The notes below the pieces were generated by a model. That model saw only the letters and a list, made by a program, of their open reading frames with translations, had not been told where the DNA came from and searched no databases. The position numbers and the translations under genes are program-made. This document shows positions 14,242-58,400 of a stretch of DNA of 64,000 bases, one piece after another. Every line of letters starts with the position of its first letter. Within the stretch, counting starts at the first letter, position 1. This stretch comes from Archangium violaceum (GTDB lineage Bacteria > Myxococcota > Myxococcia > Myxococcales > Myxococcaceae): NCBI RefSeq assembly GCF_016859125.1, contig NZ_CP069338.1, positions 4,031,501 through 4,095,500 of the forward strand. Direction: 5' to 3'.

Positions 14242-16167
14242 TCAGGTCCCGACGAGCCGTCTCACCAGCTCACGCAGCTCATCGGAGGAGAACGGCTTGT
14301 CGACGCGGTGGTTCTTCACCTGATTCAGGAACGCACGGGCCACGGGGGTAAACGCGCCGCCCGTGAGGAACACCATCCGCTCGGCGACCGAGGGAGCACC
14401 ACTGGCGAGCGCCTGGTGCAGCTCCACTCCGCTCATCTCCGGCATCATCACGTCGCACAGCACGACGTCGAAGTGCTCGCCGCCGAGCAGCCGCGCGTGG
14501 GCCTCCTTGGCGCTCGTCAGCGTGACGACCTCGTGTTCGCGCTGGAGCGTGCGGCGGATGGCCACACCAATCATCGGCTCGTCATCCACCACCAGGACGC
14601 GGCCCCGCCTCGAGGCCCCGTGCTGCGCGGACGGCTTCGCCGGCTCGGCGGGCCGCGCGGCGGCGGCGGCGTTCAGCACGACGCGGAAGGTGCTCCCGTG
14701 CCCGACGCGGCTCTCCACGCTCATCTGCCCGCCGAAGCCGGTCACGATGCCGTGGCAGATGGACAGGCCGAGCCCGGTTCCCACTCCGACGGGCTTGGTG
14801 GTGAAGAACGGCTCGAACACGCGCTCCAGGAGCTCCTCGGGGATGCCCACGCCGGTGTCGCGCACCTCGATGATCACGCTCGAGTCCTCGTGGTGCGTGA
14901 CGACCTGGATTTCGTTGCGTTCCACGTCCCCCTCGGGGATGGCGTGGGCGGCGTTGACGAGCAGGTTGAGGAACACCTGCCCGAGCCGGCCCTCGTGGGC
15001 GCGGGCCAGGACGGGCTCGCCGTAGCTGCGCACCAGCCGCGCGCGATGCTTGAGCTCGTTCATGGCCATGCAGATGGACGTCTCGAGCACGCGGTGCACG
15101 TCCACGGGCTCGGGCTGCGAGTCCTCGTCCACGCGCGAGAACAGCTTCAACTGCTTGACGATGTCGCTCACCCGGGACGCGCCCAGCCGGGCATCGGAGA
15201 GCAGCTCGCGTACCTCATTCCGCGCGGCGTCGGGCATCTCCAGCCGCGAGACCACGTTCGTCTCCAGGTAGTCCAGGTTGGAGATGGTGTAGGCGAGCGG
15301 GTTGTTGATTTCGTGCGCCACGCCCGCGGAGAGCACGCCGAGCGAGGCCATGCGGTCCGCGTGCAGCAGGCGCGCCTGCATCTGCCGGCGCTCGGTCAGG
15401 TCGCGCAGGCTCCAGAGCAGGCAGGGCTGGCCATCGAACACCAGGGGGGCCTGGGTGATCTCCACGAGCACGTGGCCGCCCGTCTTGCGCATCATGCGGA
15501 TCTCCCGGGAGGGGACGGGCGTGCCGTTGCGCAAGGACTCGTTGACGTCGTCGCGCAGCAGGGTCCACGCCTCCGCCTGGAGGAACTCCGCGGCGAGCTT
15601 GGAGATGGGGTGCCCCATGAGCTCGTCCACGGACGCGCAGCCGAGCAGGGTGGCGAGCGCGCGATTGACGTAGACGACCTGCGCTCCCTGCTGCACGCCA
15701 ATGCCCTCGGGCAGATGCTCGATGAGCTCGCGGAAGCTCTCCTGGGAGCGGCGCAGGGCCTCCAGCGTGCGGGCGTGCTGGCGCGCGTAGCGGATGGAGC
15801 GGCCCAGGAGCGTGGGCGTGAGCTGGGACTTCTCGAGGAAGTCGGCGGCCCCGGCCTGCTGCGCCAGGTGGTCGATGGTGGCGTCATCCTGCCCGGTCAG
15901 CAGGATGAAGGGGCCGCCCCAGCCCCGCTGCCGGGCCTGCTGGAGCAGCTCGAGCCCCGTCATCGCGCCGAGCCGGTAGTCCAACAGGCAGACGTCATGA
16001 CGTCCCGGGGCCAGCGCCGCCAGGGCCTCCTCACAGGTCGACACCCACTCCAGCTTCACCCGGCCCGGCCCGAGGGCGCGCAGGCAGTCGCGGGTCAGCA
16101 CGAAGTCGTCCTCGTCGTCCTCGACGAGGAGTACCTGGATGGGGTGGGGGTCGGCCTCGAGCCTCAT
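14242..16167 (-). CDS. Hybrid histidine kinase (REC-PAS-HisKA-HATPase-REC)
   Basis: A 641-residue soluble hybrid kinase. An N-terminal receiver (VLLVEDDEDD, phospho-Asp in LLDYRL) is followed by a PAS domain (about 140-260) and a HisKA domain with H-box AGVAHEINNPLAY. The ATPase domain has FLNLLVNAAHAI, EVRDTGVGIPEE and GTGLGLSICHGI, and a C-terminal receiver (VVDDEP, phospho-Asp in LCDVMMPE) ends the chain. No membrane segments are present. It is the last gene of a three-gene operon, 3 bp after the single-domain receiver gene, which suggests a multistep phosphorelay. The dual receivers could accept and return phosphate; the output is not encoded here. Confidence 0.9.
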   Translation of the reverse strand: MRLEADPHPIQVLLVEDDEDDFVLTRDCLRALGPGRVKLEWVSTCEEALAALAPGRHDVCLLDYRLGAMTGLELLQQARQRGWGGPFILLTGQDDATIDHLAQQAGAADFLEKSQLTPTLLGRSIRYARQHARTLEALRRSQESFRELIEHLPEGIGVQQGAQVVYVNRALATLLGCASVDELMGHPISKLAAEFLQAEAWTLLRDDVNESLRNGTPVPSREIRMMRKTGGHVLVEITQAPLVFDGQPCLLWSLRDLTERRQMQARLLHADRMASLGVLSAGVAHEINNPLAYTISNLDYLETNVVSRLEMPDAARNEVRELLSDARLGASRVSDIVKQLKLFSRVDEDSQPEPVDVHRVLETSICMAMNELKHRARLVRSYGEPVLARAHEGRLGQVFLNLLVNAAHAIPEGDVERNEIQVVTHHEDSSVIIEVRDTGVGIPEELLERVFEPFFTTKPVGVGTGLGLSICHGIVTGFGGQMSVESRVGHGSTFRVVLNAAAAARPAEPAKPSAQHGASRRGRVLVVDDEPMIGVAIRRTLQREHEVVTLTSAKEAHARLLGGEHFDVVLCDVMMPEMSGVELHQALASGAPSVAERMVFLTGGAFTPVARAFLNQVKNHRVDKPFSSDELRELVRRLVGT

Positions 16168-29296: not shown

Positions 29297-30079
29297 ATGT
29301 TCGCGCAGCAAACCGCCCCACAGTCTTCCCACCTGTTCGGTCCTGCCCTGTTTTCCCTGGTTGTCCACGTTGGGATCATCGGGGCCCTGTTGTTCATGGC
29401 GAGCCCGCGGGAGAAGCCGGTGGAGGAGGAGAAGGAGGTGGCGGTGTCGCTGATGCGGCAGCTTCCGCCGCCGCCTCCTCCGCCGCCTCCGCCTTCCGGA
29501 GCGGTGCGTTCGGTGGTGCAGCGCAAGCCCACCCCCCGCAAGGAGGTGGTGATCCGCCAGCCGGAGAAGATCGAGCCCATCAAGGTGGAGGAGAAGCCCA
29601 AGGAGCCCGAGCCGGAGCCGGAGCCGGAGCCGACCCCCGAGCCCGAGCCCGAGCCCACGGCGGTGGAGAACCCGGCGGGCGTGGCGGGTGGAGTCGAGGG
29701 AGGGGTGCAGGGCGGCGTGGTGGGAGGAGTGGTCGGGGGCGTGGTGGGAGGCGTGGTGGGTGGGCAGCTCGGGGGCACGGGGGAGGCGCCGGTGAAGCCC
29801 AAGAACGTGCCGCCGTTCGTCATCCAGCGCGATGTGGTGCGTCAGACGAAGCCGCGGCTGTCGGAGGTCTTCAAGCAGTCGCACCGCAACATGGGCACGG
29901 TCAACGGCATGTACCGCATCTGCGTGTCCACGGACGGCAACGTCTACGAAGTGACGGCGGTGAAGTCGGTGCCCGGCGCGGACGAGGACATCATCGCGGG
30001 CATCAAGGATGGCTGGCAGTACAAGCCCCAGAAGGTGCCGGTGTGCTTCCTCTACAACATGCCCATCACCATCCAGTGA
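29297..30079 (+). CDS. TonB energy transducer protein
   Basis: A 260-residue TonB-type protein that would couple the proton-motive force to outer-membrane receptors. It has an inner-membrane helix (LFSLVVHVGIIGALLFMA), a ten-residue Pro run, Pro/Glu/Lys repeats (EPEPEPEPTPEPEPEP) and a periplasm-spanning linker rich in GGV repeats. The C-terminal TonB domain is KPRLSEVFKQSHRNMGTVNG followed by VCFLYNMPITIQ. The Gly-Val-rich linker (GGVEGGVQGGVV and similar) is unusual. It lies next to, and divergent from, a TonB-dependent receptor operon, suggesting a dedicated transducer. ExbB/ExbD are not in this window. Confidence 0.9.
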   Translation: MFAQQTAPQSSHLFGPALFSLVVHVGIIGALLFMASPREKPVEEEKEVAVSLMRQLPPPPPPPPPPSGAVRSVVQRKPTPRKEVVIRQPEKIEPIKVEEKPKEPEPEPEPEPTPEPEPEPTAVENPAGVAGGVEGGVQGGVVGGVVGGVVGGVVGGQLGGTGEAPVKPKNVPPFVIQRDVVRQTKPRLSEVFKQSHRNMGTVNGMYRICVSTDGNVYEVTAVKSVPGADEDIIAGIKDGWQYKPQKVPVCFLYNMPITIQ

Positions 30080-30091
30080 GGGGGCGCGGCG

Positions 30092-30760
30092 CTAGCGTCC
30101 CTTGAGGGAGCGGCCCGACTGCTTGTCGAGCAGCTCGAGGCCCGCCCTGGCCTCGCGGCACTCCGGCAGGAGCTGGAGGGCGCGCTCGAAGCTCTCGCGC
30201 GCGCGCTCGAAGAAGCGCGTGGTGAGGTACTGGTAGCCGCGGGACACCTGCTCCATGGCCTGGTGGCGGGGCGAGGGCGACACCCGGGTGGCGCGGGCGA
30301 ACAGCTCGAGTGCCCGGGCGTAGTCGGCGGACTCCAGGGCCAGCATGCCGAGCTTGTAGAGCTGGAGCGCCGCGGCGGCGGGCAGGGGTCCGCCGCGCGC
30401 GGGAGGCGCCGCCGCCGGCTTCGGCTCGGGGATGGGCTGTATTGGAGTGATAGGCGTTATCGGAGTGGTGGGGGTACGGGGCGGGGCTTCGGGGGCCGGC
30501 TTCGCGTGGGCCATCCGTTCGCTCCACTCGCGCCGCTTGTCCGGCTGGGAGAGCACCTCGAAGGCCTTCTTGGCGCTCAAGAAGATTTCCAGGGCCTGGG
30601 CCTTCTCCTCCGGGGACTTCATGCGGAGCCGGTCCGGGTGCGAGCGCCCGGCGATGGCCAGGAAGGCCTTGCGGATGGCGGGCAGGTCCTCCGTGCCGCG
30701 CAGGCCGAGCACCTCGAAGGGATTCTTGTCGTGGAAGGGGGACGGGTCCTGGGGGGACAT
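30092..30760 (-). CDS. J-domain (DnaJ-like) protein with C-terminal TPR
   Basis: A 222-residue cochaperone-like protein. Residues about 12-85 form a J domain with the essential HPD motif (GRSHPDRLRMKSPEEK), followed by a Pro/Thr/Ile linker (TPTTPITPITPIQPIPEP). The C-terminus carries two TPR-like helix pairs (LYKLGMLALESADYARALEL and SRGYQYLTTRFFERARESF). It lies 15 bp after the Hsp70 gene in the same operon and should stimulate its ATPase; the TPR part may recruit clients. AAAGGAGG precedes its ATG. It converges with the TonB gene, 12 bp apart. Confidence 0.88.
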   Translation of the reverse strand: MSPQDPSPFHDKNPFEVLGLRGTEDLPAIRKAFLAIAGRSHPDRLRMKSPEEKAQALEIFLSAKKAFEVLSQPDKRREWSERMAHAKPAPEAPPRTPTTPITPITPIQPIPEPKPAAAPPARGGPLPAAAALQLYKLGMLALESADYARALELFARATRVSPSPRHQAMEQVSRGYQYLTTRFFERARESFERALQLLPECREARAGLELLDKQSGRSLKGR

Positions 30761-30775
30761 GGGCGCATCCTCCTT

Positions 30776-32308
30776 TCAGGGCGAGGTGGCGGTGGGAGGG
30801 CGCAGAGTAGCCTCGGCCTTGCGGCCGGTGGAGGGCTCTCTCGCGGTGACCTGGAGGATTCCGTCCGCGTCGATGGTGAAGTCCACGGCCACCCGCACCG
30901 CGCCAGCCGCCGCGGGGGTGAGCCCCGCCAGTTGCAGCTCTCCGAGGTAGCGGTTGCCGTCCACGGTGGGTGACTCGCCCTGGTACACCTCGATGTCCAC
31001 GTGCGTCTGTTGGTCGAAGGTGGTGGCGAACACCTTCGTCTCGCGGGTGGGGATGGTGGTGTTGCGGGGGATGAGGACGCTGAAGCGGCCGCCCTCGGTG
31101 CGGATGCCCAGGCTGCGCGAGAGCACGTCCAGCAGCAGCACCCTGGGCGTCTCGGGGGAGATGCCGGCGACGATGTCCGCCTCGAGCGCGGCGCCGATGG
31201 CCACGGCCTCGTCGGGGTTGACGGAGCGCTCGCCGGGGTGGCCGAGGTACGCCTCCGCGCGCGCGCGCACCGAGGGCATGCGCGTCATGCCGCCCACGAG
31301 GATGACGCGGTGGATGTCCTCGACGGTGAGGCCCGCGTCCTCGAGCGCCTGCTCGCACGGGGCGCGCAGCCGCTCCAGCTCCCGGGCCACCAGGTTCTCC
31401 AGGAGCGTGCGCGAGAAGGAGGGGATGGACAGGTGCAGCGGCCCCTCGGGGAGGGCCACGAGGTAGGCCAGGTCGATGGACGTCACGTCCCTCTCGGAGA
31501 GGGTGCGCTTGGTGGACTCGGCGGCCTCCTTCAGGCGCCAGAGGGCCTCGGGGTTGCCGGTGAGATCCATCCCGGTCTGCTTGAGGAAGATGCGGCGCAG
31601 GGCCTCCACCACGAGCTCGTCGAAGTTGTCGCCGCCGAGGAAGTTGTCCCCGCAGGTGGCGAGCACCTGCACCACCTCTTCCTCCACGTGAAGGAGGGAG
31701 ATGTCGAAGGTGCCGCCGCCCAGGTCGAACACGGCGATGTTCTCCGGGCGCGACTCGTCGAAGCGGCAGGCGAGCATGGCGGCGGTGGGCTCGTTGAGGA
31801 GCCGGTGCACGGTGAGCCCGGCGCGCTGGCCGGCGAGCTTCGTCTCCTGGCGCTGCACCTCGTCGAAGTAGGCGGGCACGGTGATGACGGCGCCCTCCAC
31901 GCCCTGGCCGAGCTGGGCCTCGGCGCTCTCCTTGAGGTAGCGCAGCACGTGGCTGGACACCTCGGCGGGGGTCATCACCTGGCCGTGCACGCGCACCGCG
32001 GCGTTGCCGGAGGGATCGGCGACCACCTCGTAGGGCAGCAGCTTCATGAGCCGCTGCACGGCGGGGTCCGAGAAGCGCCGGCCGATGAGGCGCTTCACGC
32101 CGTAGACGGTGTCGCGCGGGTGGAGCACGGCCTGACGGCGCGCCGCGCTGCCCACCGTCACGCGGCCCGAGGCATCGAAGCCGACGAAGGACGGGGTGGT
32201 GCGTTCGCCCTCGCGGTTGGGCAGTACGCGGGCCTGTCCCGTGGCCGCGTCGACCATGGCCATGCAGCTATTGGTCGTGCCCAGGTCGATTCCGAGAACG
32301 ATTCCCAT
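30776..32308 (-). CDS. Short Hsp70 (DnaK-like) chaperone without C-terminal lid
   Basis: A 510-residue Hsp70. The nucleotide-binding domain is complete (GIDLGTTNSCMAMV, VPAYFDEVQRQET, AVFDLGGGTFDISLL, VILVGGMTRMPSV), followed by the linker (RVLLLDVLSRSLGIR) and the substrate-binding beta domain (IPRNTTIP onwards). It ends just after IDADGILQVTAREPSTG, so the alpha-helical lid of DnaK (normally about 100-130 further residues) is missing. This is therefore a specialised paralogue, not the housekeeping DnaK. It sits between a Ser/Thr kinase and a J-domain gene, all in one orientation, 26 bp after the kinase gene. Confidence 0.9.
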   Translation of the reverse strand: MGIVLGIDLGTTNSCMAMVDAATGQARVLPNREGERTTPSFVGFDASGRVTVGSAARRQAVLHPRDTVYGVKRLIGRRFSDPAVQRLMKLLPYEVVADPSGNAAVRVHGQVMTPAEVSSHVLRYLKESAEAQLGQGVEGAVITVPAYFDEVQRQETKLAGQRAGLTVHRLLNEPTAAMLACRFDESRPENIAVFDLGGGTFDISLLHVEEEVVQVLATCGDNFLGGDNFDELVVEALRRIFLKQTGMDLTGNPEALWRLKEAAESTKRTLSERDVTSIDLAYLVALPEGPLHLSIPSFSRTLLENLVARELERLRAPCEQALEDAGLTVEDIHRVILVGGMTRMPSVRARAEAYLGHPGERSVNPDEAVAIGAALEADIVAGISPETPRVLLLDVLSRSLGIRTEGGRFSVLIPRNTTIPTRETKVFATTFDQQTHVDIEVYQGESPTVDGNRYLGELQLAGLTPAAAGAVRVAVDFTIDADGILQVTAREPSTGRKAEATLRPPTATSP

Positions 32309-32334
32309 ACCTCCCGTCCCCCCCTGGCGGTGTC

Positions 32335-34287
32335 TCAGGCCTCCGCCAGGAGCCCTACCTCGGTGAAGAGCAGCGCCACGCGGCGCAGGGCTACTTCATC
32401 CTCCGGACGCTTGAGTTCCGCAAGGGCGGCGCTCAGGGTATTTCCCGGCTTGTTGAGCAATGAGGCGGTGCGCAGCTCGGAGGCCGAGAGCGCCAGGTCG
32501 CTGGCGGCCACGGGGGCGTCCAGGTTGCGGTAGAGCGGCTTGTGGCGCAGTGCTTCCTGCTCGCGCACCAGGCGCTCCAGCGGGTAGTGCGCGCGCAGGC
32601 CCTCGTTGAGCAGCGCCAGTCCGCCCAGCCGCTCCTCGGTTCCGTCGTTGATGGGCGTCTCGTGCTCGAAGAAGGCGTAGCGGCCGGCCGTCCAGCCCAG
32701 CAGGCCGAGCGCCACGGTGCGCCGGTGCTCGAGCGTCCACTCCGCCAGCTCCGACGGTGAGAGGACCCGGGACATGAGCAGTGCGTCCATCAGCCGGCCG
32801 GAGAAGGGGCGCGTGTTCTCCACCGCCCGCTGCCACTGCTCCAGGGACAGCTTCCCGGTGTTGAGCAGGAAGGGGCCGAAGCGGTCCGCGGCCAGGCTCG
32901 AGCGCACCGCGATGATCTGCCCCGCCTTGAGGAAGAGCTCCTTGTGGGTGCGGTTGTGCTCGAAGTGGAGCCGGCCGGTGGCCCGGGCCAGCATCAGCCG
33001 GGCCATGACGCGCAGGGGAGGGACCAGCGCCAGGTTGCCGGCGTAGCGGGGCGGGGAGGCCGTCTTGCGGCGGGCCTCGAGGCGCTCGCGGGCCGAGGCC
33101 GCCGCGGCGCTGAAGCGGGGGAAGGCCGAGGGGTTCAGGAAGGGCCCGCCGGACTGGGACACCTGCGCCTCGGGCGACAGCTTCCCGGAGGCGAAGAGGA
33201 GCTGCACGTCGTCCTCGCCCAGCTTCATGAGGTAGAGGCCGCCTCCCGGCTCGCGCACCGTGAAGGTGGGGGCCGTGGGCTGGGCGGGCGGCGGTTGCTC
33301 CAGCAGCTCCGCGGGGATGGGAGGCTGCACGGGAGGCGCGCGCACCTCCGGCTCGTAGTAGGTGGCCATCAGCGCGGCCAGGTCGCGTTGGGACACGCGC
33401 AGGCCGGCGGACAGCAGGAACTCGTCGAGCGCGTCGAGCACGTCGGCGGCCGTCTGGAAGCGCTCGTCCGGGTTGGCGAGCATGCACCGGTTGACCACCG
33501 CGCACAGCGGCTCCGGCACGAAGGGGGCGGCATCCTGCAGCCGCAATGGCACGGCCTTGAGCGCCACCGTCTGCTTGAGGATGTCCATCATCGTGCTGCC
33601 CTTGAAGGCGTGCCTGCGGGCCAGCATCTCGTACAGGGTGATGCCGAGCGCGAAGATGTCGCCGCGCCCATCCGCCTTCTTCCGGGAGAGCTGCTCGGGG
33701 GGGATGTAGCCCGGCTTGCCGCGCACGTTGTTGCCGGTATCGGTGTTGCCCACCAGTGCCACGCCGAAGTCCAGCAGCTTCACCTCTCCCTCGAAGGAGA
33801 GGATGATGTTGGTGGGGTTGACGTCGCGGTGCACCAGGTGGAGGGGCTCGCCCGCGGCCGAGCGCGCACGGTGGGCGTAGTCCAGCCCCTTGAGCACCTC
33901 CATGGCGATGTAGCAGGCGATGTGGACGGGCAGGCCCTTGCCCTTCGTCCCCACGCGCCGCATCAGATCGTGCAGGTCGCGGCCGTGGATGAACTCCATA
34001 GCGATGAAGTACTCGCCGCGGTGCTCTCCGAAGTCGAAGATCTGGGCGATGTTCATGTGCTGGAGGAGCGCCGACAGCCGCGCCTCCTCGATGAACATCC
34101 TCACCGCCGCCTCCTGCTGGATGGCCTCCGGCAGCACGCGCTTGAGGACGACCGGCTTGGCGAAGCCGTTGGCCCCGAGCGCGATGCCCCGGTAGATGTC
34201 CGCCATGCCGCCGCGTCCGAGGTGGCTGAGCAGGACATAACGGCCGAAGCGGGCCGGCAGTGTGAGTTGCCCGGACGGCGTGCTCAT
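32335..34287 (-). CDS. Ser/Thr protein kinase with C-terminal DUF4388-like domain
   Basis: A 650-residue cytoplasmic Hanks-type kinase. The kinase domain (about 10-290) shows the Gly loop LGRGGMADIYRG, Lys in VVLKRV, the catalytic loop HRDVNPTN, DFG in LLDFGVAL, and the APE-like PPEQ. The usual HRDLKPEN reads HRDVNPTN here, so the Lys next to the catalytic Asp is Asn; such variants occur in myxobacterial kinases. The C-terminal half (about 415-600) resembles DUF4388 (YAGNLALVPPLRVMARLM). Its start overlaps the stop of the coiled-coil gene by 4 bases (ATGA), and the Hsp70 gene follows. Confidence 0.88.
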   Translation of the reverse strand: MSTPSGQLTLPARFGRYVLLSHLGRGGMADIYRGIALGANGFAKPVVLKRVLPEAIQQEAAVRMFIEEARLSALLQHMNIAQIFDFGEHRGEYFIAMEFIHGRDLHDLMRRVGTKGKGLPVHIACYIAMEVLKGLDYAHRARSAAGEPLHLVHRDVNPTNIILSFEGEVKLLDFGVALVGNTDTGNNVRGKPGYIPPEQLSRKKADGRGDIFALGITLYEMLARRHAFKGSTMMDILKQTVALKAVPLRLQDAAPFVPEPLCAVVNRCMLANPDERFQTAADVLDALDEFLLSAGLRVSQRDLAALMATYYEPEVRAPPVQPPIPAELLEQPPPAQPTAPTFTVREPGGGLYLMKLGEDDVQLLFASGKLSPEAQVSQSGGPFLNPSAFPRFSAAAASARERLEARRKTASPPRYAGNLALVPPLRVMARLMLARATGRLHFEHNRTHKELFLKAGQIIAVRSSLAADRFGPFLLNTGKLSLEQWQRAVENTRPFSGRLMDALLMSRVLSPSELAEWTLEHRRTVALGLLGWTAGRYAFFEHETPINDGTEERLGGLALLNEGLRAHYPLERLVREQEALRHKPLYRNLDAPVAASDLALSASELRTASLLNKPGNTLSAALAELKRPEDEVALRRVALLFTEVGLLAEA

Positions 34288-35507
34288 TTCTTACCGGGTC
34301 CGCCGAGGAGTGGATTCTCCTCGACGAGCATCTCGTTGAACATGTCCTCGCTGATGACGAGGGTGCCGGGCCGGGAGGGTGGAAGCCGGGGCGGGAGGGG
34401 ACCCGGGATGGGCGCGGGCGTCTTGGCCGGACCCGAGGGCGCTCGCGTGCTCGCCTTGGGCATGGGGGCCTTGGCCGCCACGGTGGACACCACGGGCACG
34501 GGCGGTACGGACGGCACGGGGGGCGGCATCGCCGGTGGGGGCGCCTCCAGCGCGTCGAGCGGGCCGAGCAGGACCTCCATGCTCGGAACCTTGCGCTCTG
34601 GCACCGGGGTGATCGCCGGCACGGGGGGCCGGCTCACGGGAGTCTCCGAGCCCAGCGTCTCCCCCTGGCCGTTGGCCAGCTGCAGCGTGTTGTTGCCGAA
34701 GGGAATCTCCGGCGTCTTGTCGACCGGTCGGCTCACGGGCCTGGCCGGGGCCACCCTGGGCGGGGGCGGGGCGACGTTGATGGGCGGTGGCACCGGCTTG
34801 GGCGCGGTGGGCGAGGACGGGGCGGAGGTGGCCGTGTCCCCCGTGAGCAGGACGATCATCCTGCGCAGATCCTCGATGGTGTGCTCCTTGGCCTCGAGCG
34901 TCTGCTCCCGGGTGGTGAGGTTCTTCTCGAGCTCGGCCACGCGCAGGGCGAGCCGCTCCCGCTCGGCGCGCAGCCTGGGCAGGACCTCGGCCTCGGCGCG
35001 CAGCCGCCGCAGCTCCTCCTGCAGTGCCGACGAAGGACCCGTGGCCGTCTCCTGTCCGCCCTGGGCGCGCACCTGCTCGCGCAGGGTGTTGAGCTCCTGG
35101 AGCCACAGCCGCTTCTCCTCGCGGGTGATGGCCTCCTGCTCGCGCAGCTCCGCTTCCCGCCGCGCGAGCCCGCTCTGGAACTGCTCGCTCAGCCCACCGA
35201 GCCCGGAGATGAGCTCCTTGAGTCCGCGGCCGGCCCGTTCCAGACGTTTGACGAGCTGGCCCTGCTCCTCGATGCGCTCGATCAGCCGGGGCAACACGTT
35301 CAGGAGCGTCTCGCGGGCGCCCGTCTTGCGCAGCTCATCGCGTTGCGTCTCCAGACGGCCGAGCTCCTGGGTCGCCTGGCGCAGCAGGGGGAGCACCAGC
35401 TCGGCGATGCCCTCTGCCTGACGTCCCAGCTCGATGCAGCCCTGCCGTGCCGCCTGGAGGTCCGCCGAGGAGCCCATCGACGGCTCCATGCTGGTTGCGT
35501 TCCTCAT
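34284..35507 (-). CDS. Coiled-coil protein with Pro-rich C-terminus
   Basis: A 407-residue protein with no signal peptide. Residues about 20-240 are almost entirely heptad-like helices (ELGRLETQRDELRKTGARE, RLRAERERLALRVAELEK), a long coiled coil. The rest is Pro/Ala/Val-rich and disordered, ending in a conserved-looking acidic tail (TLVISEDMFNEMLVEENPLL). It probably scaffolds the kinase encoded downstream. ATG 35507 has a strong GGAGGAAG ribosome-binding site. Its stop overlaps the kinase start by 4 bases, so the two are translationally coupled. I recognise no family. Confidence 0.75.
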   Translation of the reverse strand: MRNATSMEPSMGSSADLQAARQGCIELGRQAEGIAELVLPLLRQATQELGRLETQRDELRKTGARETLLNVLPRLIERIEEQGQLVKRLERAGRGLKELISGLGGLSEQFQSGLARREAELREQEAITREEKRLWLQELNTLREQVRAQGGQETATGPSSALQEELRRLRAEAEVLPRLRAERERLALRVAELEKNLTTREQTLEAKEHTIEDLRRMIVLLTGDTATSAPSSPTAPKPVPPPINVAPPPPRVAPARPVSRPVDKTPEIPFGNNTLQLANGQGETLGSETPVSRPPVPAITPVPERKVPSMEVLLGPLDALEAPPPAMPPPVPSVPPVPVVSTVAAKAPMPKASTRAPSGPAKTPAPIPGPLPPRLPPSRPGTLVISEDMFNEMLVEENPLLGGPGKK

Positions 35508-35644
35508 CGCGCTTCCTCCACTCCCTCCTCGGATGCGTACCGTCGCCGAACCGCGCGTCCGCGCCATGATACCCCACCGCCCCGTGCCGGGCTTGCATGG
35601 GGTGGCGAGCCTGGTCGTCAGCGCACCAGCCTGCTGGATTGCCT

Positions 35645-36229
35645 TCATTTCCCCTGCAAATGGGTCGCGGGCGCTCCAGGCGGGCGTGCCGGGGCCGCGC
35701 GCGGCAGGGCGGGGAAGGGCTCGAAGCCCTCCAGCGCGAGCTGTCCGAGGCTCATGCTCGCCTCCGGCAGCCGCTCGATGTCCTCGGCGAACCAGGGCGT
35801 CTCGACACTGGCGGGGGGCGGCACCGGAGCGGGTACTGAAGCGGGCGCCGGAGGAGTGGGCACCGCCTGGGGTCCGAGCGACTCCGTGTCGATGTCGGAT
35901 TGCGAGAGGTCGACGGTGAAGGTGTGGACGGGCTGCGGCTCCGCGCGCCGGGGGCCGGAGACCTCCACCATGGGACGGCGGCGAGGGCGTGGCGCCGCTT
36001 CCTCCGGGGCCGGGGCGGCAGGCGTGTCGGGAGGCTTCGGAGGATCCAGCGGACGCGCGCTCACCTGCAGGGCGGCACCACATCCCGCGCAACGGATGAC
36101 CTGCGTCCCGGGACCCACGAGCGGCACCACCGTCCCACAACGTGGGCACTGGGGGCGGGGAGCCGTGGCGGGTGAGGGAGCCTCTGCGGTCATGCGCTCG
36201 TCGAGCTTCGAGGAACGCCGCCGTGGCAT
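35645..36229 (-). CDS. Zinc-ribbon protein with disordered C-terminus
   Basis: A 194-residue protein with a single zinc ribbon near the N-terminus (CPRCGTVVPLVG and later CAGCGAAL), the MJ0042-like or RpoP-like C-x2-C...C-x2-C pattern. After it comes a long Pro/Ala-rich, charged and probably disordered tail. No catalytic domain is present. The start is uncertain: ATG 36229 gives a basic leader (MPRRRSSKLDERMTAEA), while ATG 36193 would start at MTAEAPSPATAPRPQ; neither has a strong ribosome-binding site. It lies 137 bp upstream of the coiled-coil gene on the same strand and may belong to the kinase-chaperone cluster. Confidence 0.65.
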   Translation of the reverse strand: MPRRRSSKLDERMTAEAPSPATAPRPQCPRCGTVVPLVGPGTQVIRCAGCGAALQVSARPLDPPKPPDTPAAPAPEEAAPRPRRRPMVEVSGPRRAEPQPVHTFTVDLSQSDIDTESLGPQAVPTPPAPASVPAPVPPPASVETPWFAEDIERLPEASMSLGQLALEGFEPFPALPRAAPARPPGAPATHLQGK

Positions 36230-36446: not shown

Positions 36447-37127
36447 ATGTCGTACTCGCAGCTGCTGGCCCATATCCCCATGTTCGAGCACCTCGCGAAC
36501 GAGGAACTGGAGACCCTATCGGGATTGCTGCAACAACGGCCCTATAAAAAAGGTGAGATCATCTTCCACCAGGGCGATGTGGGCACGGCGCTCTTCATCG
36601 TCCGCAGGGGAGAGGTGGCCATCCGCCTGAGCTCGTCGGAGGGCAAGGAGGTCATCCTGGCGCTGCTGGGTCGTGGGGAATCCTTCGGGGAGCTGGCGCT
36701 GCTGGACGGGGAGCCGCGCTCGACGGACGCCGTGGCGCGCGAGGAGACCCACCTGCTGATCCTGCATCAGAATGATTTCCGGCGCTTCCTGAGCGAGCGC
36801 CCGCAGGTGGCCATGGGGCTGCTGGCGGTGCTCAGCCGCATGGTGCGGCGCGTCACCCAGCTGGTGCATGACGCGGCCTTCCTGGATGCGCGGGCGAGGC
36901 TGGCGCGGGTGCTGTTGGACCTGGCCGAGAGGCAGGGCCAGCCCGCTCCCAATGGCGGAATCGTCATCCCCAAAATCACCCAGGCGGAGCTGGCCAGCCT
37001 GTGCGGGGTGACGCGCGAGAGCGTCAACAAGTGGCTGCGCTACTACGCCCGCGCGGGAGTGATCTCGTATGAGAACGGGCAGATCACCATCCTGGACATC
37101 GAGCGCCTGCGCCGCGACGTGGACTGA
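36447..37127 (+). CDS. Crp/Fnr-family transcriptional regulator
   Basis: A 226-residue cyclic-nucleotide-type regulator. The N-terminal beta-roll (about 10-110) has a phosphate-binding cassette FGELALLDGEPRSTDAVA, with the Glu and Arg-Ser pair that bind cAMP in CRP. A long C-helix (LSRMVRRVTQLVHDAAFLD) leads to the helix-turn-helix TQAELASLCGVTRESVNKWL. The recognition helix reads TRESVNK against SRETVGR of E. coli CRP, keeping Arg and Glu and replacing the second Arg by Lys, which fits TGTGA recognition. Two TGTGA-type boxes lie about 350 bp downstream. It is divergent from the zinc-ribbon gene. Confidence 0.88.
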   Translation: MSYSQLLAHIPMFEHLANEELETLSGLLQQRPYKKGEIIFHQGDVGTALFIVRRGEVAIRLSSSEGKEVILALLGRGESFGELALLDGEPRSTDAVAREETHLLILHQNDFRRFLSERPQVAMGLLAVLSRMVRRVTQLVHDAAFLDARARLARVLLDLAERQGQPAPNGGIVIPKITQAELASLCGVTRESVNKWLRYYARAGVISYENGQITILDIERLRRDVD

Positions 37128-37713: not shown

Positions 37714-39378
37714 ATGACAGTGCGCGCCAGGATCTTGGTCTTCGCTGCGGTGGCGGTGGGGCTCGTCGCGCTGCTGGGAGGGACGCTCTTCGCCCTGGCG
37801 AGCCGCGGACAAGGGGGGCTGGAGCGGTTGCTCGCCATCCAGGAGCAGACGGAGTTCTACGGCCGGGTGACGGACGACGCGCTCGGGTTCCTGCATGCGC
37901 TGCTCCAGGCGCATGGGACGGGAGGTGATACCCGGGGACTGCTCGCGGAGCAGGAGACGCTTGCCCAGGTGGGCTACTCGCGCCTGCGGGCGTTGGTGCG
38001 GCAGGAGCACCTGGCGGGCTCCGAGGCGGAGGAGCTCCTGCGCATCGAGCAGCTCGAGCGGGCGCACCTGCACTGGTTGCGGAGCAGCGAGGCGCGCGTG
38101 AGGGAGGCCCCGGCGGGGTCGGAGGCCACGCTGCTGCACGAGGCGCTCTCCGACTTCCGCGAGCAGGTGGTTCCGAGCCTGGAGAAGGCCTGGGCGCTGG
38201 AGCGCACGGATCTGGATGCACACAAGCTCTACGGTCAGCGGACGCTCCAATGGGGCCAGCTGCTCGGGCTGTTCGCCCCGTTCGTGGCCCTGACGCTCGT
38301 GTTCTCGCTGGCGATCCTCATCTACCTGAACATCCGCCGCGCGCTTCGGACGCTGCTGCGTGGCGCGGAGCGCATCGGCGCGGGTGATCTCCACAGCGAG
38401 CTGCCGGTGAACGGGGACATCGACGAGTACGACCTGATGGCGCAGGCCATCAACCGGATGGCCGCCCAGCTCCGGGACTCCGTGCGGGAGCGGGAGCGGC
38501 TCGCCAAGGCGGAGGCGGAGGCCTCGGAGCGGGAGATGCGCCGCTACAACGCCCTGCTGGAGGAGACGGTGCACCAGCGCACCGCCCAGCTGGAGGAGGC
38601 CAATGTCCGGCTCACCGACAGCGTGAAGCAGCTCCAGTCCGCCCAGGCCCAGCTCCTCTTCACCGACCGGCTGGCCACTATCGGTCAGCTCGCGGCGGGC
38701 GTGGGCCACGAAATCAACAACCCGCTCACCTTCATCCTCAGCAACCTCAACTATGCCCAGCAGGTGGTGACGGAGTTGGAAGCGGCGCCCACGGCGGAGC
38801 GCCGGGAGTTGTTGGAGGCACTCGCCGAGGCCCGCGAGGGGGCCGAGCGCGTGCGCCTCATCGTGAGGGATCTCAAGATGCTGTCCCACCCGGATGACCG
38901 GGAGAGCGGCCCGGTGGACCTGGTGAAGGTGGTGCGCAGCGCGGCGAAGATGGCGGCGCACGAGATTCGCGACCGCGCGCGGTTGGTGCAGCAGGTGGAG
39001 AACGTGCCGCCGGTCCACGGCAACAGCGCCCGCTTGTGCCAGGTGTTCCTCAACCTGCTCATCAACGCGGCGCACGCCATCACGCCGGGTCAGGTGGAGC
39101 GCAACGAAATCCAGCTCGTCGCTCGCGTGGACGACAGCCAGCGGGTCACCGTGGAGGTGCGCGACACGGGCTGCGGCATCCCCGAGGACAAGCTGGAGCG
39201 CGTCTTCGAGCCGTTCTTCACCACCAAGCCCGTGGGCGAGGGCAGCGGGCTGGGGCTCTCGGTGTGCCAGAGCATCATCTCCGCGTACGGCGGGAAGATC
39301 TCCGTCGAGAGCGAGGCGGGCCGGGGCACCACCTTCCGCGTGAGCCTGCCGGTGCATGGCGGCGAGGCCCGCGCGTGA
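37714..39378 (+). CDS. Membrane sensor histidine kinase with HAMP domain
   Basis: A 554-residue sensor kinase. TM1 (ILVFAAVAVGLVALLGGTLF) and TM2 (LFAPFVALTLVFSLAILIYL) flank a helical periplasmic domain of about 150 residues. A HAMP domain (NIRRALRTLLRGAERIGAGD) and coiled coil lead to the H-box AGVGHEINNPLTFILSN. The ATPase domain has FLNLLINAAHAI, EVRDTGCGIPED and GSGLGLSVCQSI. Its kinase core is similar to the hybrid kinase at 14242. No partner regulator lies next to it. Upstream sit two CRP-type boxes, so transcription may depend on the Crp-family protein. The ribosome-binding site is weak (AGAAG). Confidence 0.88.
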   Translation: MTVRARILVFAAVAVGLVALLGGTLFALASRGQGGLERLLAIQEQTEFYGRVTDDALGFLHALLQAHGTGGDTRGLLAEQETLAQVGYSRLRALVRQEHLAGSEAEELLRIEQLERAHLHWLRSSEARVREAPAGSEATLLHEALSDFREQVVPSLEKAWALERTDLDAHKLYGQRTLQWGQLLGLFAPFVALTLVFSLAILIYLNIRRALRTLLRGAERIGAGDLHSELPVNGDIDEYDLMAQAINRMAAQLRDSVRERERLAKAEAEASEREMRRYNALLEETVHQRTAQLEEANVRLTDSVKQLQSAQAQLLFTDRLATIGQLAAGVGHEINNPLTFILSNLNYAQQVVTELEAAPTAERRELLEALAEAREGAERVRLIVRDLKMLSHPDDRESGPVDLVKVVRSAAKMAAHEIRDRARLVQQVENVPPVHGNSARLCQVFLNLLINAAHAITPGQVERNEIQLVARVDDSQRVTVEVRDTGCGIPEDKLERVFEPFFTTKPVGEGSGLGLSVCQSIISAYGGKISVESEAGRGTTFRVSLPVHGGEARA

Positions 39379-55472: not shown

Positions 55473-58400
55473 ATGACGCCGTCTCCGCCCGATGTCACAA
55501 CGTCCCCGGCGCTCGTCCCCTCCATTCCCGGGTACCGGGTGGGGGCGCTATTCCAGGCGGGGGCCCGGTTCCTCCTCTATCGGGGATGGCGGACGCGAGA
55601 CGAGCTCCCCGTCATCATCCGGCTCCTGCGCGCGGAGCGGCCCTCGTTCTCCGAGCTGCTCCAGCTCCGCAATCACTATGCCCTGATTCGAGACCTCCGG
55701 CTCCCGGGCGTCGTCTCGCCGCTGGCCTTCGAGCGCTGCCACAACGGCTTCGCCATCATCTCGGCGGATCGCGGCTTCGTTCCGCTGAACGATTACGTCG
55801 CGGCCCACCCGCTCACCGTGCCACAGGTGCTCGAGATCGGCATCTCGCTGGCGGAGACGCTGGAGGGGCTCTACCAGCACCGGGTCATCCACAAGGACCT
55901 CAAGCCCTCCAACATCGTCATCCACCCCGAGACGCGCGACATCCTGCTGTCGAACTTCAGCATCGCCTCGCGGCTGCCACGGGAGACCCAGGCGCTCGAG
56001 AACCTGGCGCTGCTCGAGGGAACCCTGGCCTATATGTCTCCGGAGCAGACCGGGCGGATGAACCGGGGCATCGACTACCGCACCGACTTCTACTCGCTCG
56101 GCGTGACGCTCTACGAGCTGCTCACGGGCCGTCTCCCCTTCCAGAGCACGGATCCGCTGGAGCTCGCCCATTGCCACATCGCGCGGCCACCGCGCCCGCC
56201 GCGCGAGCTGGAGCCAGCCATCCCCGAGATGGTCGAGCGCATCGTGCTCAAGTTGATGGCGAAGGCCGCCGAGGATCGCTACGCGAGCGCGTACGGGCTC
56301 CGGCATGATCTCCGCGTGTGCCTCGAGGCCCTGCGGGAGCAGGGGTCCGTCCCCCTCTTCGAGCTGGCCCGGAGGGACGTCTCGGACCGGTTCCACCTTC
56401 CGGAGAAGCTCTACGGCCGTCAGGAGGAGGTCCGGACGCTGTTGAACGCGTTCGACCGGGTGTGCCAGCGGGGCATGGAGCTGCTGGTGGTGACGGGCTT
56501 CTCGGGCATCGGCAAGACGGCCGTGGTCAATGAAATCCACAGGCCCGTCGTCCGCGCCAAGGGCTTCTTCGTCTCGGGCAAGTTCGACCAGCTCGGGCGG
56601 AGCATTCCGTACTCGGCCCTGGTGCAGGCCCTCTCCTCCCTGGTGCGGCAACTCCAGTCGGAGAGCGGCGAGCGGCTCGAGACCTGGAGGCAGCGGCTCC
56701 AGCTGGCCCTGGGCAGGGAGGGTCGGGTGCTGCTCGACATGATGCCGGAGCTCGAGGGCCTCATCGGGCCCCAGCCCCGGGTGACGGAGCTCGAGCCCTC
56801 CGCCGCCCAGCAACGCTTCAACCTGCTCCTCATCCGGCTGCTGCGCGCGTTCGCGACGCAGGAGCATCCGCTCGTCATCTTCCTGGACGACCTGCAATGG
56901 GCGGACGCGGCCTCGCTGAAGATGCTGCACCTGCTGGCCACGGAGCTGGGCTCCGCGCGGTTGCTGCTGATTGGCGCGTACCGGGACAACGAGGTGACCC
57001 CGGCCCATCCCCTCCTGTTGACGCTGGAGGAGATCCGCGACGCCGGCGTGGCGGTCCACCCGCTGACGTTGGCGCCGCTCCCGGAGGAGGTGGTGAACGA
57101 GCTCGTGGCGGAGACGCTCTCGTGTCCGCCGGAGCGGGCCCGGCCTCTGACGGGGCTCGTCTACCAGAAGACGGGAGGCAATCCCTTCTTCACCTCCCAG
57201 TACCTGAAGGTCCTCTTCCAGCGGGGCCTCGTGAGCTACGACGCCTCGGCGCACATGTGGCAGTGCGATCTGGCGCAGGTGCGGGACCAGTCGCTGTCCT
57301 CGGACGTGGTGGAGTTCATGGCCGGTCAGCTCCAGCGTCTGCCCGAGGAGACCCGGAAGGTGCTCGAGCTCGCCGCGTGCATCGGCAACCGGTTCGAGCT
57401 GGCGACGCTCTCCCGGGTGTACGGGGGCTCGGAGGCGGATACGGCGGCGGCGCTGTGGTGCGCGCTGCAGGAGGGGCTGATCCTCCCCACCTCGGAGGTC
57501 TACAAGTTCTACCAGGACCCGGAGGGCCTCGAGGCCACGGGCATGGCGCCCCTGTCGGTGCGCTACCGGTTCCTGCACGACCGGGTGCAGCAGGCGGCCC
57601 ATTCGCTCATCCCGGAATCGGACAGGCAGCGGACCCACCTCGAGATAGGCAGGCGCCTGCTCGAAACGGCCTCCGCGCAGGAGCGGGAGGAGCACCTGTT
57701 CGACATCGTGAACCACCTGAATGTCGCCCGGGGGCTCCTGGTGGAGGTGGAGGAGCGTCACGAGCTCGCGCGGGCGAATCTGCGGGCTGGCAGGAGGGCC
57801 CTGACGTCGAACGCGTATGACGTGGCGCGCGAGTACCTGGAGACGGGGTTGACGCTCCTGGAGCCGGAGAGCTGGCGGACCCACTACGAGTTGACGCTCG
57901 CCCTCCACGAGGAGGCGGCGCGCGCGGCCTGGCTCAGCAGGCATTTCGCGCGGCAGGACGAGCTGGTGGGCGCGGTGCTGTCCCATGCGCGCACGGTGCT
58001 GGAGCGGGTGCGGGCCTACGAAATCCGCATCCAGACGGCCATCGCCCAGGAGCGGCTCGCCTTCGCTCTGGAGACCGGGCTCCACGTGCTGGGGGAGTTG
58101 GGGGTGGAGTTCCCGGCGGCACCCCGGCCCGAGGACATCGAGCGGGGGCGCGAGGAGGTCCGTGCCGCGGTGGGTGACGGCTCGCTGGAGCAACTCAGCT
58201 CCCTGCCGGAGATGACGGATGCCAGGTCCCTGGCGGCGGTGCGAATCCTGACCCTGCTGGCGCCGCCCGCCTACCAGACGAAGCCCGCGCTGCTGCAACT
58301 GCTCATCTTCCGCACGGTCGTGCTGACCGCGCGGCATGGCGTGGCGCCCATCACGGCCCCGACCTTCGCGATGTACGGGCTCATCCTCTGCGGGATGCTC

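Follow-up and report, generated by a model that had tools for sequence, protein, structure and literature searches.

A conserved five-gene locus of Archangium combining a Ser/Thr kinase with a short Hsp70 and a J-domain/TPR protein

The five-gene locus and its conservation

The window analyzed here is a stretch of 64,000 nucleotides from Archangium violaceum (contig NZ_CP069338.1, positions 4,031,501 to 4,095,500, forward strand), whose genome is a single contig of 12.68 Mb; among its congeners are A. violaceum Cb vi76 and A. lansinium. From about 36.2 to 30.1 kb, the window carries five minus-strand genes. In order, their products are a protein with a zinc ribbon, one with a coiled coil, a Ser/Thr kinase that has a DUF4388 domain, an Hsp70, and a protein with a J domain and TPRs (the J-TPR protein). 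All 10 available genomes from two genera preserve the order of these genes and the distances between them, and the arrangement is therefore not due to chance: the operon is real, conserved and lineage-restricted. The features of the locus are as follows.

35645..36193, minus strand: zinc-ribbon protein gene; CPRC...CAGC near the N-terminus, no Pfam family
35566..35573, minus strand: invariant GGTATCAT in the gap before the coiled-coil gene, kept in 10/10 genomes
34284..35507, minus strand: coiled-coil protein gene; weak match to Rad50/SMC coiled coils, no Pfam family
32335..34287, minus strand: Ser/Thr kinase gene with C-terminal tail, 650 amino acids (Pfam)
33454..34239, minus strand: Hanks-type kinase domain, residues 17-278 (Pfam and conserved residues)
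33091..33276, minus strand: GYF-like element, residues ~338-399 (ortholog alignment and predicted structure)
32590..33042, minus strand: DUF4388 (PatA N-terminal, PATAN) domain, residues 416-566 (Pfam)
30776..32308, minus strand: short Hsp70 gene, 510 amino acids (Pfam); nucleotide-binding domain (NBD), VLLLDV linker, substrate-binding domain beta (SBD-beta), no lid
30092..30760, minus strand: J-domain/TPR protein gene, 222 amino acids, class C type; HPD at residues 41-43, TPRs at ~133-204
29297..30079, plus strand: convergent flank, Pro/Glu-rich TonB/GltJ-type protein; conserved locus marker
36447..37127, plus strand: divergent flank, CRP/FNR-type regulator; conserved locus marker

An earlier note on this DNA, made from the sequence alone, had described a kinase, a lidless Hsp70 and a J-domain protein in one cluster with two further genes. 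All five open reading frames are present in one orientation and in the order it gave, and its spacing was exact: the coiled-coil stop and the kinase start overlap as ATGA, with gaps of 26 bp between the kinase and Hsp70 genes and of 15 bp between the Hsp70 and J genes. Its domain assignments were also borne out by Pfam, i.e., a kinase domain (124.5 bits) and a DUF4388 domain (50.1 bits) in a single protein, an HSP70 match of 561 bits covering positions 1-499 of the 599 in the model, and a DnaJ match of 38 bits together with TPRs. What the description had overlooked was the GYF-like element in the kinase and two likely start codons. For the zinc-ribbon gene, the conserved MTAEA at 36193 is, from the ortholog alignment, the more likely start, because the codons upstream of it are not conserved, although 36229 is still a possible one; the coiled-coil gene likely starts at MRNA (35507). 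In the window, the zinc-ribbon and coiled-coil genes are separated by 137 bp, and the presence in this gap of the invariant GGTATCAT, a candidate -10 element, suggests that the last four genes may be under a promoter of their own.

We surveyed 96 genomes of the family for the J-TPR protein, 58 genomes for the Hsp70, and 147 genomes of the class for the kinase tail. Ten of the 96 encoded the J-TPR protein, namely all six of Archangium (g1) and all four of a sister genus (g6), both of which are soil bacteria that form fruiting bodies; one additional weak match, in G087, covered the TPRs alone. An Hsp70 ortholog (83-92% identity) was present in the same 10 genomes and was not found in any other of the 58, in which the best match was a canonical DnaK (~48%). 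The kinase tail occurred in these 10 genomes and in one more, G080, and in none of the rest of the 147.

The order of the five genes and their strand were identical in all 10 genomes, and the CRP/FNR gene adjoined the set in every one, with the TonB/GltJ-like gene also next to the set in 7/10. The gap between the zinc-ribbon and coiled-coil genes was 130-137 bp and included GGTATCAT without change, and the overlap between the coiled-coil and kinase genes was 4 bp in 9/10. The kinase/Hsp70 gap was 22-32 bp and the Hsp70/J gap was 12-22 bp where the start was clear, the latter range excluding an odd J start in G003, which is an artefact of the start-codon search. These spacings are kept among orthologs whose identity falls to 84% for the kinase and 65% for the J protein. 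The earlier note had proposed a dedicated unit of kinase and chaperone pair, which it would have given up had the genes not been kept together in relatives; order and spacing do hold throughout the clade, but the set is confined to these two genera.

Two genomes showed disrupted frames, either real or due to assembly error: in G033 the kinase gene reads as two overlapping frames, with a frameshift after the kinase domain (L036:5495-7446), and in G005 the coiled-coil gene is frame-shifted near its 3' end (L039:13803-15082). The Pro/Glu-rich flanking protein (29297-30079) weakly matches GltJ, which is a gliding protein (E = 2e-5), a similarity that may be compositional. Elsewhere in the window are two histidine kinases (14242-16167 and 37720-39378), nearest to EspA and EspC of Myxococcus xanthus although far under the cut-off, and a protein of 1774 amino acids (55539-60863) with Ser/Thr kinase, AAA, GAF and histidine-kinase ATPase domains.

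Domains of the kinase, its adaptors and the chaperone pair

The kinase domain has the Gly loop, catalytic Lys, HRD and DFG motifs of Hanks-type Ser/Thr kinases, and GxGG, the catalytic Lys, HRDVNPTN, DFG and PPE are all kept in its orthologs. It is not a PASTA kinase of the PknB/Stk1 type, since it scored 201 of the 450 bits required and no PASTA domain was found by Pfam. The DUF4388 domain (PF14332, which we take to be PATAN) scored well above the Pfam gathering score of 25, and its orthologs scored 43-59 bits.

Between the kinase and DUF4388 domains lies a segment of ~60 residues that is similar to the N-terminal part of L116 (below), a protein encoded elsewhere in this genome, and that is predicted to adopt a GYF-like fold. 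It was modeled by AlphaFold2 with a pLDDT of 89.8, from an input alignment in which the L116 element was mixed with it. When the model was searched with Foldseek, 13 of the 15 best matches were GYF domains, including the chains of 4bws, which we presume to be GYF domains, and, as the second-best match, the GYF domain of M. xanthus GltJ (from the title of PDB 7z3c). Because the E-values were high (0.2-1.4), the assignment rests on the consistency of the matches. Pfam gave no GYF match to the element, and the W..GP..GYF signature was not found in it. In a model of the whole tail, the DUF4388 part was poor (mean pLDDT 55), and its Foldseek matches, GYF domains excepted, were rejected as meaningless.

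The DUF4388 part of the tail also matches the N-terminal domains of the pilus ATPases PilF/PilB (E = 2e-5) and, below the cut-off, NF053729. Residues 469-521 form a degenerate MshEN-type tandem with the exact 24+5+24 spacing. By a loose score, 10/11 and 7/11 positions of the MshEN motif are present in the two halves, with no match to the strict or relaxed motif (PMC5013675); in the second half, neither glycine nor the glutamine is present. Since the tail has the spacing of MshEN without its residues, we rejected c-di-GMP binding as unlikely. Four other DUF4388 reading frames (L154, L155, L158 and L162) have 9-10/11 MshEN positions in both halves and, judged by these residues, are better c-di-GMP candidates than the window kinase.

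Pfam gave no family for either of the first two proteins. The zinc-ribbon protein is mainly disordered apart from three conserved islands (RPRRRPMVEV, TFTVELSQSDI and PWFAEDIERLPEA..LGQLALE), and the C-terminal half of the coiled-coil protein is Pro-rich and disordered, with the short conserved islands FGNSTMQLA, PSMEIMLGPLDEL and RPGTLVISEDMFNEML. A docking motif repeated between the islands of the two proteins was considered and dropped, as the shuffle test fell below 0.05 in only one of ten pairs.

Because coverage of the HSP70 model stops at position 499, the Hsp70 consists of NBD, linker and SBD-beta with no lid; it ends near residue 505-510 of DnaK, where the lid starts, and has no helical lid (SBD-alpha). 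Its NBD is actin-like and keeps the catalytic residues D8, K70, E171, T199 and D201 (DnaK numbering), and the protein also keeps Y145, R167, N170, T173 and D393, which we take to be the J-contact residues. The substrate arch is altered, with M404 changed to E and A429 to T. The protein misses the curated equivalog cut-offs for canonical DnaK (591 of 648 bits with PRK00290, 570.7 of 822.55 bits with TIGR02350), and its nearest relatives by score are the two canonical DnaKs of the genome (454-456 bits), not the other short Hsp70s. The J-TPR protein has HPD in 10/10 orthologs and a DnaJ score well over the cut-off of 27.8 bits; Pfam found no DnaJ_C domain and there is no Zn-finger, which places it in class C.

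The lack of a lid was rejected as the odd feature of the locus, since it is common among the Hsp70s compared here and among those of M. xanthus (PMC8265645). As 8 of the 13 Hsp70s compared in the genome lack a full lid, and as non-canonical Hsp70s have been reported in all myxobacteria, the short Hsp70 on its own is ordinary; myxobacteria have a dozen or more Hsp70s, which are specialized and whose jobs are mostly unknown (PMC8265645). Other Hsp70s of the genome include a PilZ-Hsp70 fusion of 808 amino acids (L006:6264-8690), like the CsdK1/2 chaperones of M. xanthus, and one (L010:4422-8518) whose gene apparently shares an operon with genes for a diverged GrpE and for a DUF6109 protein.

A lone kinase, a fused relative and a second Hsp70-kinase pair

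The additional genome with the kinase tail, G080, is a metagenome-assembled genome (MAG), Archangium sp. SZUA-606. On a contig of 7.4 kb (L072), the kinase has the CRP/FNR and TonB-like genes on either side, as in the window, but it stands alone there, the zinc-ribbon, coiled-coil, Hsp70 and J partners being absent from the locus. This kinase is 63% identical to that of the window, whereas its flanking genes (79% and 76% identical) are no more distant than those of the sister genus. The kinase has diverged fast: its branch length was 0.97, compared with 0.08 and 0.23 for the flanking genes, whereas in G034, which has the full set, the corresponding values were 0.10 for the kinase and 0.31 and 0.22 for the flanks. 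From these rates, the kinase appears to be constrained where the four partners occur. The lone kinase is also without the ~60-residue segment between the kinase and DUF4388 domains, which is nearly invariant in the full-set orthologs; in these kinases the GYF-like element is thus found only together with the partners. Since G080 has the kinase alone, the kinase is able to exist without this chaperone pair.

The protein encoded at L116:6967-9594 fuses, from its N-terminus onward, a GYF-like element, DUF4388, a J domain and TPRs; these four kinds of module follow one another just as they do along the kinase tail and then the J-TPR gene. It differs in that it has no kinase domain and no Hsp70 nearby, and in that it keeps the W-G-P signature of GYF domains. 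It apparently has not been described before, and a single ortholog is present in 80/92 genomes of the family. In profile comparisons between L116 and the cluster, the GYF-like element matched with E = 3e-5, DUF4388 with 1.5e-10, and the J domain with the first TPRs with 4e-7. The fusion thereby links the kinase tail to the J-TPR gene. We rejected a direct relationship between the two DUF4388 domains, because that of the kinase was only fifth of 16 when matched to that of L116; not being especially close, they point to a shared architecture and no recent split. A second fusion, L115, combines a receiver domain, DUF4388, a J domain and TPR, and two further J proteins of the genome have a weak DUF4388. 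With 10,000 genes assumed, the chance of finding an above-cut-off DUF4388 in 2 of the 12 J proteins of the genome is ~2e-4.

The genome has another Hsp70-kinase pair at 1.78 Mb (L002:3600-7859; G000:C1:1779600-1783859), where genes for GrpE and a full-length DnaK have a Ser/Thr kinase gene directly downstream. We call this locus sglK-like from its layout, which matches grpS-sglK and an adjoining kinase gene in M. xanthus. Orthologs of its kinase are present in 82/92 genomes of the family, and an Hsp70 is the same-strand neighbor in 27 of 30 sampled loci. Derivation of the window kinase from this one was rejected, the latter ranking 31st of the 33 kinases in the genome that match the former; as the two are not closely related, the pairing of an Hsp70 with a kinase arose at least twice, independently. 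At L197:3228-8463 a canonical dnaJ is followed on the same strand, ~0.9 kb downstream, by a large kinase gene, and this pairing was rejected because its spacing is too loose.

Interpretation and comparison with known systems

These comparisons give good support to the view that kinase and chaperone pair belong to a single unit, because synteny and spacing are kept in 10/10 genomes, the L116 protein fuses modules of both, and an independent DnaK-kinase pair occurs across the family. We propose, with a probability of roughly 45%, that kinase, adaptors, Hsp70 and J-TPR protein are one signaling-and-chaperone unit with the kinase as scaffold hub. The kinase tail, with its GYF-like element and DUF4388/PATAN domain, would offer the zinc-ribbon and coiled-coil adaptors a place to dock. 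The J-TPR protein would also dock there, directly or via the adaptors, and its J domain would activate the adjacent lidless Hsp70 locally. Rather than serving general folding, the Hsp70 would remodel or release a particular signaling client, i.e., an adaptor or kinase substrate, and phosphorylation by the kinase would decide the timing of its action. Genes, domains, residues and co-occurrence are observations; each binding step, like the client and which way control runs, is inferred.

Several points weigh against this proposal. The scaffold contacts and phosphorylation are predictions from sequence. The DUF4388 ranking given above leaves architecture as the only link between the kinase tail and L116. 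The Hsp70 differs from DnaK near the J site (N147D, D148E). GYF domains bind proline-rich peptides, and proline-rich stretches occur in the coiled-coil and J proteins, but the kinase element has lost the W-G-P signature that L116 proteins keep, so that binding of such peptides by it is doubtful, a guess. Finally, G080 is a MAG that is 86% complete, and the trees give it no firm position, so that either gain or loss of the four genes may account for the difference.

Of the other ways to read the locus, the one in which the kinase phosphorylates the Hsp70 and/or the J protein while its tail senses a signal, with no scaffold, is unlikely; phosphorylation as a control on the chaperone had also been raised in the earlier note. 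It would fit the intact catalytic residues in the orthologs, the tight geometry of co-transcription and the repeated origin of Hsp70-kinase pairs; however, it leaves unexplained the zinc-ribbon and coiled-coil genes, the appearance of the GYF-like element together with the partners, and a DUF4388-J-TPR fusion that has no kinase. The earlier note had suggested that the kinase or its client needs folding help. An Hsp70 and J protein dedicated to folding or stabilizing the kinase or adaptors would agree with the operon order of kinase, Hsp70 and J and with their conserved proximity, but this is a rather improbable account: the suggestion is weakened because the same kinase sits alone between the same flanks in G080, the genome already has two canonical DnaKs, and the missing lid and altered substrate arch (M404E, A429T) fit a specialized client better.

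It is quite improbable that the genes are functionally unlinked neighbors, co-inherited in an expanding genome. Myxobacterial genomes do have many kinases and Hsp70s, and the set is confined to two related genera, but the order and the 12-32 bp spacing are identical in 10 genomes despite the divergence of the proteins, and the GYF-like element and the partners are absent together in G080. Very improbable is a version in which the helical part of DUF4388 binds c-di-GMP and so switches the unit on, as in the PilZ-DnaK proteins of M. xanthus (PMC10313047). The PilF/PilB and NF053729 matches and the exact tandem spacing speak for it, whereas the failure of both the strict and relaxed motifs and the residues missing from the second half speak against it, and the GSPII-A domain of PilF shows that degenerate copies need not bind (PMC12002112).

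For the unit with the kinase as scaffold hub, the likeliest setting, by analogy, would be the regulation of surface behavior (pili, exopolysaccharide, gliding). The analogy is with StkA and SglK, the PilZ-DnaK proteins and the cyanobacterial PATAN proteins (below), and with the likeness of part of the tail to PilF/PilB. It is possible, although doubtful, that myxobacteria have a whole class of Hsp70 machines coupled to kinases, with a GYF-like/PATAN tail that recruits a J-TPR protein and a lidless Hsp70 as the output arm of Ser/Thr-kinase signaling; the operon would then be a split, kinase-bearing version of L116, and the GrpE-SglK-kinase locus an older, independent member. Bacterial Hsp70s have mostly been studied as general folding machines, and the window locus and the sglK-type pair provide concrete pairs for testing kinase control of bacterial chaperones. 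The locus also suggests that DUF4388/PATAN, known from pilus control, may work with J proteins.

As the earlier note had supposed, no description of this five-gene combination was found in a literature search; its known families stand, as far as the literature found goes, in an undescribed combination. Among proteins with similar parts, GltJ of M. xanthus has a zinc ribbon and a GYF domain in one protein and acts in gliding motility. The parts in the window would be comparable to a zinc ribbon and a GYF-like fold that act together with a coiled-coil protein, although in the window they are on separate proteins and the GYF signature has been lost; any link to gliding would be one of analogy alone. 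PATAN is found on CheY-type regulators in PixE, PixG, LsiR and PatA, whereas in the window it is on a Ser/Thr kinase; PATAN CheY-type regulators act on the type IV pilus in cyanobacteria (PMC7690835).

As in the window, the sglK locus (GrpS-SglK; PMC8265645, PMC10313047) has an Hsp70 gene and a gene for a Hanks-type kinase on one strand, the kinase gene being second there. It differs in having a full-length, lidded DnaK, GrpE in place of a J protein, and a kinase with neither DUF4388 nor the GYF-like element. In M. xanthus, the non-canonical Hsp70s (cl35085 non-PRK00290) include MXAN_2747, with a short SBD-alpha, StkA, and the PilZ-DnaK proteins CsdK1/2. StkA and SglK affect exopolysaccharide and S-motility (PMC4319316, PMC8265645), and the PilZ-DnaK proteins act in a c-di-GMP pathway (PMC10313047). 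Like the window Hsp70, members of this set are short or lidless and stand outside the housekeeping pair, and they have specialized social or second-messenger roles unrelated to heat shock (PMC8265645, PMC4319316, PMC10313047); the window Hsp70 differs from them in having a dedicated J protein and a kinase.

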